Shown piece after piece: positions 20,660 to 64,000 of a stretch of DNA of 64,000 nucleotides (position 1 is the stretch's first letter; each line of letters opens with the position of its first letter). The DNA lies in assembly GCA_019116525.1 (NCBI GenBank), contig DXBM01000010.1:19603-83602 (forward strand), read 5' to 3'. Made by a program: the position numbers and the translations under genes. This stretch comes from Candidatus Olsenella pullistercoris. Its GTDB lineage: Bacteria; Actinomycetota; Coriobacteriia; Coriobacteriales; Atopobiaceae. The notes under the pieces are model-generated. The model was not told where the DNA came from, searched no databases, and saw only the letters and a list, made by a program, of their open reading frames with translations.

Positions 20660-20770
20660 CGTGTGGGTCGTGGTCCGGACGTGGTTGTGACACTGCGGGT
20701 GTTTCATCCCGGCGCATGGTCCTTCTCGGCTTCCTATTTGCCTCAATTCTGTCCTCCTTTCTGCCTTCTT

Positions 20771-21009
20771 TCTCACTTCCGTCAATCTGACGTTTCTGAG
20801 AGGCCCCCTGTGCTGTTTCCCTTCTCACAAACGTCATATTGACGCTTCAATGAAGGGCTGCGTGAAGAGGGCTTGCACAGATGCGTCAACTTGACGGAAG
20901 TGAGATTCCTCTCACGGAGGCTGACCCCACAGATGCGTCTGTCTGACAGAAGTGAGAAGGTGCCGGGTTCGGGCGGCATTTCACAAACGTCTGTTTGACG
21001 CTTCTGCGA
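20771..21009. repeat. Five 31-bp palindromic repeats at an exact 52-bp period
   Basis: Units start at 20771, 20823, 20875, 20927 and 20979; each is 31 bp and each gap is 21 bp. The core is CGTCA-N3-TGACG, with dyad centres at 20786, 20838, 20890, 20942 and 20994. The first unit is a complete two-part palindrome TCTCA-N4-CGTCA-N3-TGACG-N4-TGAGA; the others keep most of it. Flank similarity suggests units 3 and 4 are inverted relative to 1, 2 and 5. The period equals about five helical turns, so all sites face the same side of DNA. The array fills the space between cspA and the MarR/ABC operon. The binding protein is unknown. Confidence 0.85.
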
Positions 21010-45036: not shown

Positions 45037-45085
45037 GAGGCGTCCGCGCGGCGCCCTCCGGGCTCTTTGGAGCACGTGCACTCAT

Positions 45086-45207
45086 GTGTTGGGTGATTCT
45101 GCTGGCGCACATAAAGTGCTGTTTCGTAGGTGCCATTTCTCTAGCTGCGGTTCTTTGGATGATGAAGGCTCTCGTACTCCTTGCCATCTCATAAAACCAC
45201 CCAACAC
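45086..45207. repeat. Intergenic inverted repeat, GTGTTGGGTG family
   Basis: GTGTTGGGTG (45086-45095) and CACCCAACAC (45198-45207) are perfect inverted arms. Similarity extends a few bases to either side. The 102-nt interior includes a GCAC-ATAAA-GTGC hairpin and is less GC-rich than the surroundings. It occupies the otherwise gene-free stretch between the ffh terminator and the SpoU promoter. No ORF in it looks real. Confidence 0.65.
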
Positions 45208-45250
45208 TTGCGAGGGGTGGCGCACGGCTCGCTCGGGAAGGACGACTCGC

Positions 45251-60232: not shown

Positions 60233-61744
60233 ATGGCAACGTTCTTTGAGGGGGAGTCCCACACCTTTTCCGAGTACCTGCTCGTTCCCGGCTACTCCTC
60301 AGCGGAGAACGTCCCAGACAACGTGTCGCTCAAGACGCCCCTCGTGAGGTTCAACAGGGGAGAGGAGCCCGCGCTCTCCCTCAACATCCCCATGGTCTCC
60401 GCCATCATGCAGTCCGTCTCGGGCGTTGACATGGGCGTTGCCCTCGCCATCGAGGGCGGGCTCGCCTTCATCTACGGCAACCAGACGCCCGAGTCCGAGG
60501 CCGCCATGGTCAAGGCCGTCAAGGACCACAAGGCCGGCTTCGTCGAGTCCGACTCCACCCTCACCCCCGACATGACGATGGAGCAGGTCATGGAGCTCAA
60601 GGCGCGCACCGGCCACTCCACCATGCCCGTCACTGACGACGGCTCCTCCCGCGGCAAGCTGCTCGGCATCGTCACCAGCCGCGACTACCGCCCCTCGCGC
60701 GACGACCCCCAGAAGCTGGTCCGCGAGTTCATGACGCCGCGCGAGAAGCTTATCGTGGGCGACAAGGACATCACGCTCAAGCGCGCCAATGACGTCATCT
60801 GGGAGAACAAGCTCAACGCGCTGCCCGTGGTCGACGAGAACGACCACCTCGTCGGCATCGTCTTCCGCAAGGACTACGACCAGCACAAGTCCAACCCCAA
60901 CGAGCTTCTCGACGCCAACAAGCGCTACATGGTGGGCGCCGGCATCAACACGCGCGACTACGCCACGCGCGTGCCGCTGCTCGTGGAGGCTGGCGCCGAC
61001 GTGCTGTGCATCGACTCCTCCGAGGGCTTCTCCGAGTGGCAGAAGCGCACGCTCGAGTGGATTCGCGCCAACTACGGCGACTCGGTCAAGGTGGGCGCGG
61101 GCAACGTCGTCGACGAGGACGGCTTCCGCTTCCTCGCGGACTGCGGGGCCGACTTCGTGAAGGTGGGCATCGGCGGCGGCTCGATCTGCATCACGCGTGA
61201 GACCAAGGGCATCGGCCGCGGCCAGGCCTCGGCCGTCATCGACGTCTGCCGCGCGCGCGACAAGTACTTCGAGGAGACGGGCGTCTATGTGCCCGTCTGC
61301 TCTGACGGCGGCATCGTCTACGACTATCACATGACCCTTGCGCTGGCCATGGGCGCCGACTTCATGATGCTCGGCCGCTACTTCGCCCGCTTTGACGAGA
61401 GCCCCACCGAGCGCGTGAACGTGAACGGCCAGTACATGAAGGAGTACTGGGGCGAGGGTTCCGCGCGCGCCCGCAACTGGCAGCGCTACGACCAGGGCGG
61501 CGCTTCCAAGCTGGGCTTTGTTGAGGGCGTCGACTCCTACGTGCCCTACGCCGGATCGCTCAAGGAGGGCGTCGGCCAGACGATCTACAAGATCAAGTCC
61601 ACGATGTGCAACTGCGGCGCCAAGACGATCAAGGAGCTTCAGGAGAAGGCACGCCTCACGCTCGTGAGCTCCACCTCCATCGTCGAGGGCGGCGCACACG
61701 ACGTCGTGGTCAAGGACTCGCAGCACTCCGTGAGCTACCGCTAG
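60233..61744 (+). CDS. guaB: IMP dehydrogenase
   Basis: ATG 60233 ([12 protein letters not shown]) follows GAAAGGAG; the track start at 60143 reads through the promoter. The 503-aa protein has two CBS domains (about 100-220) within a TIM barrel. The catalytic loop is '[12 protein letters not shown]', with Cys attacking IMP, and the phosphate-binding region is '[13 protein letters not shown]'. It oxidises IMP to XMP with NAD+, the first committed step to GMP. The flap region '[19 protein letters not shown]' (core '[13 protein letters not shown]') replaces the common YRGMGS pattern, as in a distinct IMPDH subgroup. Confidence 0.93.
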
Positions 61745-61856: not shown

Positions 61857-62086
61857 GCGCTTAAGAAAACGGGGCAGTTGCACTTTGGCGGCTGACTCTT
61901 GCTTAGGAATCCAGGGTAGTTGTACCTCTGCTTGCGGCGAGAAGGGCTTCTCGGCAGCAAAGGCCCAGTTGGCGCCGGGCTGTCCGTCCTTCTCGCCCTC
62001 CCATGGCGTCCTCGGGGCTGCAACTACCCCGGATTCCTAAGCACGAAACCGTCCGGAGCATGCAACTACCTCGTTTTCCTAAGCGC
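61857..62086. repeat. Nested inverted repeat of four 25-bp units upstream of leuS
   Basis: Units begin at 61859 (+), 61901 (+), 62018 (-) and 62060 (-). All fit GCTTAGGAA-(AAC/TCC)-GGGGTAGTTGCA with few changes. The outer pair has the AAAAC form and the inner pair the AATCC form, so outer pairs with outer and inner with inner. The two units of each arm are exactly 42 bp apart. Between the arms, GGCGAGAAGG (61936) and CCTTCTCGCC (61988) add a perfect 10-bp inverted pair. The gap 61745-62159 holds this, the guaB stem-loop and the leuS start signals, and no gene. Confidence 0.85.
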
Positions 62087-62159: not shown

Positions 62160-64000
62160 ATGAGCGACGCCGAGAAGAACTTCGAGGTCCCGGCCTACGA
62201 CGCCGAGGAGATCGAGACCCGCTGGCAGGCCGAGTGGGACGCCGAGGAGCTCTACAAGACTGAGGAGAGCCCCGAGAAGCCCAAGAAGTACGTTCTGGAG
62301 ATGTTCCCGTACCCCTCCGGCGACCTGCACATGGGCCATGCCCGCAACTACACGATCGGCGACGCCATGGCCCGTCAGGCCCGCATGCGCGGCTTTGACG
62401 TGCTGCACCCGATGGGCTACGACGCCTTTGGCCTGCCCGCTGAGAACGCCGCCATCAAGCACAACACGCAGGCGAGCGTCTGGACGCACCAGAACATCGC
62501 GCAGGCAACCAAGACCATGCGCCGCATGGGCTTCTCCTACGACTACGACCGCATGTTCAACACCTGCGATCCCGAGTACTACAAGTGGGGCCAGTGGATC
62601 TTCCTCAAGATGTGGGAGAAGGGCCTCGTCTATCGCGACAACTCGCCGGTGAACTGGTGCCCGGGCTGCCAGACGGTGCTCGCCAACGAGCAGGTCGTCG
62701 ACGGCAAGTGCTGGCGCTGCGGCTCGGTCCCCGAGAAGCGCGCCCTCTCCCAGTGGTACTTCAAGATCACCGACTACGCCCAGGAGCTTCTCGATGACCT
62801 CAAGAAGCTCGAGGGCAAGTGGCCCGAGCGCGTGCGCGCGATGCAGTCCAACTGGATCGGCCGCTCCGAGGGCGCCGAGATCGACTTCACGCTCGCTGAC
62901 GTCGACGGCGTGACGCCGACCGACACCAAGATCACCGTCTTCACCACGCGCCCGGACACGCTCTTTGGCGTGAGCTTCTTCCTGCTGCCGCCGGAGAGCC
63001 CGCTTGCCGCCGAGCTCGTGGCAGGCACCGACCACGAGGCCGCGTTCCTCGAGCTCAAGGCCGCCGCGGAGAAGGTCTCCTCGGTCGACCGCCAGGGTTC
63101 CGAGCGCGAGAAGCACGGCGTCTTCACCGGCCGCTACGTCATCAACCCGGTGAACGGCCGCCCGGCGCCCATCTGGGTCGCCGACTACGTCCTCATGGAC
63201 TACGGCACCGGCGCCGTCATGGGCGTTCCCTGCGGCGACCAGCGCGACTTCGACTTCGCCAAGAAGTACGGCCTTGAGATCGCCCCGATTATCTGCGAGA
63301 AGGACGACCCGCTGTACGAGCGGCTCAAGGACGAGCGCGAGCTCGTCGTTACCTCGGTCAACTGGGACCACGCGATGGAGGCCGAGGGCTACCTCGTGCA
63401 GTCCGGCCAGTTCACCGGCATGAAGGGCGGCAAGCACTCCGAGGCCGTCGACGCCATCATCGACTGGCTCGGCGAGCAGGGCCTCGGCCGCAAGACCGTG
63501 CAGTTCCGCCTGCGCGACTGGCTCATCAGCCGCCAGCGCTACTGGGGCAACCCGATCCCGATGATCCACTGCGACGACTGTGGTGACGTGCCGGTGCCCT
63601 ATGAGGACCTGCCCGTCACGCTGCCGGACGCGCTCGACCTTGGCGCCGGCGAGACGCTCGCCGCCTACGCGCCGTTCTACGAGACCGTGTGCCCCAAGTG
63701 CGGAAAGCCCGCAAAGCGCATCACCGACACCATGGACACCTTCACGTGCTCCAGCTGGTACTACCTGCGCTACTGCGACCCGCACAACGAGGAGCTGCCC
63801 TTCTCGCGCGAGGCGGTGGACCGCTGGATGCCGGTGGACAACTACATCGGCGGTATCGAGCATGCCATCCTGCACCTGCTCTACAGCCGCTTCTTCACCA
63901 AGGTCCTGCGCGACCTCGGCATGATCGGCATTGACGAGCCTTTCGAGAACCTGCTCTGCCAGGGCATGGTCAAGGATGCCAACGGCGACACCATGTCCAA
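62160..64000 (+). CDS. leuS: Leucyl-tRNA synthetase, N-terminal part
   Basis: The gene is missing from the track because it has no stop in the window. ATG 62160 ([19 protein letters not shown]) has GAAGGAG upstream. The visible 613 residues include the HIGH motif '[15 protein letters not shown]', a zinc site '[15 protein letters not shown]...CWRCG', the editing-domain threonine region '[10 protein letters not shown]', '[14 protein letters not shown]', and the start of the KMSKS-like motif (MSK) at the last bases. The editing motif reads '[10 protein letters not shown]' where most bacterial LeuRS have '(A/G)HDQRD' or '(A/G)HDERD'. It charges tRNA-Leu. No T-box is seen upstream. Confidence 0.96.

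Follow-up and report, generated by a model that had tools for sequence, protein, structure and literature searches.

The intergenic region in front of leuS in our window (the whole 64,000-nucleotide stretch analysed here) contains a nested inverted repeat, which raises the question of whether it is a structured regulator of leuS, a miniature mobile element, or part of a system of a different kind. In window coordinates, the guaB stop lies at 61744 and the leuS start near 62160, and a repeat of four units sits in between. All four units of about 25 bp were located where a preliminary description had placed them, in the order ++-- with 42 bp within each arm. The outer and inner units of the left arm lie at 61857-61883 and 61899-61925 on the + strand (PWM scores 34.3 and 36.5), and the inner and outer units of the right arm lie at 62018-62044 and 62060-62086 on the - strand (41.5 and 34.3), giving start-to-start distances of 42, 119, and 42 bp. 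With up to 3 mismatches allowed, the unit pattern matched 4 times in the window versus 0.00 expected from shuffles.

The 10-bp pair previously reported inside the arms was also present as GGCGAGAAGG/CCTTCTCGCC, with GGCGAGAAGG at 61936-61945 on the + strand, left of the core, and its partner at 61988-61997 on the - strand (CCTTCTCGCC on the + strand); GAGAAG motifs recur inside related elements. A motif search placed a central core, CAGCAAAGGCCCAGTTGGC (consensus CGACAAAACCSCAGKTGRC), at 61955-61973 on the + strand, phased to both arms. This core, the 10.5-bp steps into which distances are quantised, and the array-flanked nuclease gene family described below were all missed in the earlier sequence-only account.

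An intergenic array family in Thermophilibacter

The window repeat is one copy of an undescribed intergenic array family in the genus Thermophilibacter (Atopobiaceae); searches of open-access papers for intergenic repeats of Olsenella/Coriobacteria, for DUF559 repeats, and for repeats linked to homing endonucleases brought up no match to the arrays. The genome-wide search proposed in the preliminary description recovered the nested arrangement on contigs C24, C28, and C47 of the source genome and, more weakly, on C27. Across copies the ++-- order was the norm, a repeated, designed structure in which the 42-bp spacing corresponds to four helical turns. A PWM built from 254 units (consensus GCTTAGGAANNNNGGGTNGTTGCA) gave 254 matches at a score of at least 11 versus 1 in reversed sequence, and window-family units can be written as GCTTAGGAA...GGGTAGTTG or GGGTAGTTGC. 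Among 61 relatives the unit was essentially limited to one genus, with 0 to about 20 arrays per genome and 1 to 5 units per arm (extremes at loci L069 and L098).

As far as sequence can define it, the cassettes follow one plan, with at least one ~25-bp unit per arm pointing at a central core, helical-repeat distances, and an intergenic position; according to gene calls from a simple home-made predictor, all elements were between predicted genes and none inside. The neighbours were unrelated housekeeping genes (such as gdhA, pnp, ispD/ispF, hisA/hisF, ftsH, and cysE), on which ground an aaRS or operon regulon was rejected, and arrays were found even between the two genes of the ispD/ispF and hisA/hisF pairs. 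Divergent promoter regions were the rarest array context (8 of 70).

Comparison with sister genomes, another check suggested earlier, revealed empty or differently occupied sites. Synteny of guaB and leuS is kept in nearly all congeners, with a window-type element at this site in G000, G004, and G025 and a reduced one in G007; the gap is short in several species, and most congeners have no window-type element there. In G001, G003, G005, and G011 the gap held arrays of other sequence on the same plan (GGTTATGCGCA, with a GCAGGTA-like core), and the ispD-ispF gap was 13 bp in G002 versus 309 bp in G025 and G004. Judging by these site comparisons, cassettes are present or absent at fixed positions between species, and one and the same site can carry different arm sequences in different species. 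Within one genome, copies differ in their spacers and keep their units and core. At occupied and empty sites we read no clean target-site duplication and saw no standard terminal repeats or clear ends, and the flanks beyond the outer units showed no conservation among elements.

The GGTTATGCGCA arrays (L121 in G001, L122 in G005, L130 in G003, L136 in G011) have exact 19-bp steps, mostly with 73 bp between arms; this step is not a whole number of helical turns, and the pitch differs from that of the window family. Everted (- +) unit pairs, whose starts lie 77 bp apart on either side of a CTACCTG...CAGGTAG inverted repeat, were observed in G025 (C3:304362-304466 and 305546-305650) and at L108 and L099/L107. 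The two back-to-back G025 C3 elements were considered as an autonomous unit and rejected, as by sequence reading they flank apparent MATE-type transporter remnants.

Helical spacing and sequence constraint

Of 114 pairs of neighbouring units within an arm, 110 were spaced by 41 or 42 bp. From one inner unit to the other, the distance took discrete values of 88, 97-99, 107-109, 118-120, and 128-131 bp, with a best period of 10.45 bp across 30 mutually non-orthologous loci (R = 0.91, Monte Carlo p = 5e-5). Between the arms, 47 of 56 elements contained the oriented core CGACAAAACCSCAGKTGRC (motif AAAACCSCAGKTGR) with a score exceeding the 99% level of shuffled sequence, mostly 21, 31, or 41 bp from one arm and 33 or 43 bp from the other, in steps of about 10.4 bp. 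Based on these helical-repeat steps and the phasing of the core to both arms, we concluded that the elements are phased on B-DNA.

Units, core, and GAGAAG motif are, as ortholog comparison indicates, under constraint. Between orthologous elements of sister species, strong unit positions diverged by 4.7%, the core by 9.2%, and the GAGAAG motif by 3.1%, compared with 20-22% for spacers, interior, and flanks (interior remainder 21%); the core and GAGAAG values are unbiased by copy discovery, and the unit value is partly biased. Since most elements of G004 and G025 are orthologous, the system would be mainly vertical and its movement slow at best.

A predicted nuclease associated with the arrays

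A search for genes with inverted, repeated intergenic sequence on their flanks led to a paralogous protein family that recurs as array-flanked, with several copies per genome. In G025, 8 of 9 paralogs were at most 600 bp from a repeated inverted element versus 24.6% of all genes (p = 9e-5), and several had their own arm sequence (e.g., GTGTACGAAGTTGCA, CTCGTGAATTCACGAG, ACCAAGAATCCCG, GGTTTGGGTTCG). Scanned for nested phased arrays with no sequence assumed, 30 nuclease loci from as many genomes gave 18 with an array (14 at 41 bp), 30 RAYT loci gave none, and 200 random genes, all from G025, gave 15 (p = 1.5e-10); at the threshold applied, the other 12 nuclease loci had no such array. This stricter scan replaced a first, looser one that was unspecific (56 of 150 random genes). 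Arrays were usually on both sides of the nuclease gene.

The nuclease flanks in G004 and G018 were window-type units, and those in G000, G020, and G021 were variants related to them; in G001, G011, and G027, both sides of the nuclease carried a GGTTGGAGG variant at 41 bp. The dispersed arrays of G018 and G020 have the same 41-bp spacing as their nuclease flanks. A nuclease-plus-array cassette adjoining rubrerythrin was present in G004 and G018 and absent in G025, a genome with many window-family arrays, yet no nuclease flanked by a window-type unit. In the source genome (assembly 81.5% complete), the nuclease on contig C8 had at its flanks a unit, GGGAAGTGC, that is related to the window type but distinct from it. 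Arm motif and nuclease similarity were weakly associated in a Mantel test (r 0.20, p 0.045), partly through GAGAAG words. All 31 of 31 congeners contained the nuclease.

The protein, 364-370 aa long in G004 and G000, had no assignment in Pfam, NCBIfam, or PADLOC. An alignment of 21 sequences revealed invariant E184, H252, and D261, near-invariant D228, and an E or D before Y247, and the structural model (pLDDT 88) had strands and helices in the order expected of PD-(D/E)XK enzymes. Its fold matches were weak but consistent with PD-(D/E)XK nucleases, TnsA and I-Bth0305I among them; the best, TnsA, covered part of the protein only (E 0.05, TM-score 0.14-0.19), and the sequence match to 3R3P was not significant (E 0.5). 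The E/D/E/H/D conservation and the confident model point to a predicted PD-(D/E)XK nuclease with a conserved acidic active site in an alpha/beta core. The array-flanked genes for this predicted enzyme, in turn, point to what may be a new kind of enzyme-plus-repeat system.

Proposed mechanism and comparison with known systems

We consider it rather probable that the feature in front of leuS is one of the dispersed copies of an intergenic repeat cassette linked to a nuclease, a REPIN/RAYT-like system of another enzyme class for which we infer DNA binding, cleavage, and movement. The earlier suggestion of a miniature mobile element comes close to this reading; the tie to leuS offered as its alternative fell with the unrelated neighbours of the other copies. 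Nuclease protomers would bind units four turns apart on one DNA face, and the arms would bring the protomers together on the core. Cutting or nicking at the core would then be followed by repair from another copy, which may occasionally copy or homogenise the cassette and the nuclease gene, and the outcome would be a selfish repeat population, mostly vertical, like REPIN/RAYT or homing elements. If this is true, REPIN-like intergenic repeats of bacteria would have behind them, besides Y1 transposases, a second and unrelated class of enzyme, part of the confusing palindromic intergenic DNA in Coriobacteriales would be explained, and the spread of such repeats by nuclease-directed gene conversion would become testable. 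The paralogs and their arrays would also be natural pairs of enzyme and site whose specificity switches while the geometry stays fixed.

Several known systems share parts of this organization. Tn7 ends have several transposase sites each, and TnsA of the TnsA/TnsB pair is the closest, though weak, match to our nuclease model, but the array elements are far shorter. In lambda-type attP, the arm-type sites surround a core and are in helical phase, whereas the arrays here are many and dispersed and are linked to an enzyme other than a tyrosine recombinase. I-Bth0305I, an EDxHD/Vsr-like homing endonuclease, is described as reading a long target as a dimer (PMC3943268). Such endonucleases have a similar predicted nuclease domain with conserved acidic and His residues; in contrast, the gene described here has no intron or intein host, is array-flanked, and is accompanied by many dispersed arrays.

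The closest analogue in behaviour is REP/REPIN with RAYT, a Y1 HUH transposase, in which a genome contains several families of short intergenic inverted repeats, each family next to an enzyme gene in single copy and largely vertical (PMC3116915). Short intergenic inverted repeats, an enzyme gene, and vertical descent are common to both, whereas the predicted PD-(D/E)XK nuclease, the 41-42-bp nested steps, and a central core shared among arrays are all on the array side. The unit PWM is not self-complementary, unlike palindromic REP with its conserved 5' tetranucleotide (GTAG or similar), and the unit's GTAG-like position varies between A, C, and T. Among 30 RAYT loci, none had a Y1 (PF01797) transposase gene flanked by the window unit, which led us to reject RAYT as the partner enzyme and sets the arrays outside the REPIN/RAYT family. 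RAYT genes of the genus (L235, L213, L215, L220, L234) were flanked by their own REP-like repeats, such as GGGGACAGGTTCATTTGTC and GTGACAAAGGGGTCGTAGCCGACTGTCAC, the latter in tandem at 40 bp.

Alternative explanations

A structured RNA or cruciform controlling leuS seems to us scarcely credible. The window copy does have a strong predicted fold (z -9.3), a value that any inverted array would give, and no Rfam family was matched at gathering score (best E 0.17). The preliminary description had suggested conservation of the folded form, or copying of one arm from the other, because variant bases matched by position between the outer partners (AAAAC) and the inner partners (AATCC). That matching is correct for the window copy but is no family rule. 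In 23 elements, partner units matched at 21.6 and crossed units at 20.9 of the 34 variable positions, which makes partners no more alike (p = 0.36), and complementarity of the 15-bp spacers was 38% versus 34% (p = 0.07), no clear sign of pairing; it is thus not a fold that is conserved. The loop length, moreover, is quantised at the pitch of B-DNA, which fits protein assembly on double-stranded DNA and for which an RNA loop would have no reason; most congeners have no window-type element at leuS, and other copies stand beside unrelated genes.

Two readings that accept a protein on the DNA or a mobile repeat have more in their favour. The arrays may serve the host as chromosome-organising or operator sites under host selection, with the nuclease-like proteins, or another host binder, mainly binding DNA; the strong constraint that orthologs show on units and core, the vertical inheritance, and the retention of arrays at gdhA and guaB-leuS across species despite diverged sequence would all agree with this. 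We nevertheless regard it as unlikely, given patchy presence between close species, neighbours that do not resemble a regulon, the rarity of divergent promoter contexts, and arm turnover at one site. A MITE or REP of the usual kind, belonging to one of the known transposase classes (DDE or Y1/RAYT), with the nuclease association incidental, is more improbable still: RAYTs and REP-like hairpins are common in the genus and elements come and go at fixed sites, but neither these units nor nested phased arrays occurred at any of the 30 RAYT loci, copies in one genome keep units and core and differ in spacers, and the terminal repeats and target duplications standard for such elements were not seen.

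Core elements across the Coriobacteriales

In G025, whose genome was read almost in full, about 30 further intergenic cores lay away from window-type units, many of them between different inverted repeats. By a wider count only ~20-38 of 199 repeated inverted elements in this genome held the core, which thus marks a subset of the genus's palindromic repeats. The core was matched in 39 of 151 genomes across the order, with few control matches, and in most inspected Coriobacteriales contexts different inverted arms stood alongside, whereas viral matches had no such arms. A phage origin was rejected, as the one viral unit match and the six viral core matches, without arrays or inverted arms, are ascribed to chance. 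In the class, 66 of 150 genomes, most of them Coriobacteriales, contained the nuclease, with up to 14 matches in one genome.

More tentatively, and with some doubt on our part, there may be order-wide systems in the Coriobacteriales in which paralogous PD-(D/E)XK nucleases, several to a genome and each with a changing arm sequence of its own but with the 41-42-bp geometry and the core in common, would maintain and copy dispersed arrays by targeted cutting and repair. If true, this nuclease/array class would represent a mobile-DNA mechanism outside the known transposases, integrases, and introns.

Other repeats were observed in the window itself. At 45083-45210, a core-type element has other arms, ATGTGTTGGGTGATT ... 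AACCACCCAACACTTG, around the reversed core CTAGCTGCGGTTCTTT, and a further family, with nested inverted repeats (TTCTCACTTCCGTCAATCTGACG... / ...GCGTCAACTTGACGGAAGTGAGA) and no clear core, is represented at 20770-21000. The window also contains GGCGAGAAG sites; the pattern GGCGAGAAGNAC occurs 407 times in G025 versus 6 for the reversed pattern, and its 9-mer is ~40-fold over-represented between genes, with codon use explaining part of the coding copies but not the intergenic ones.
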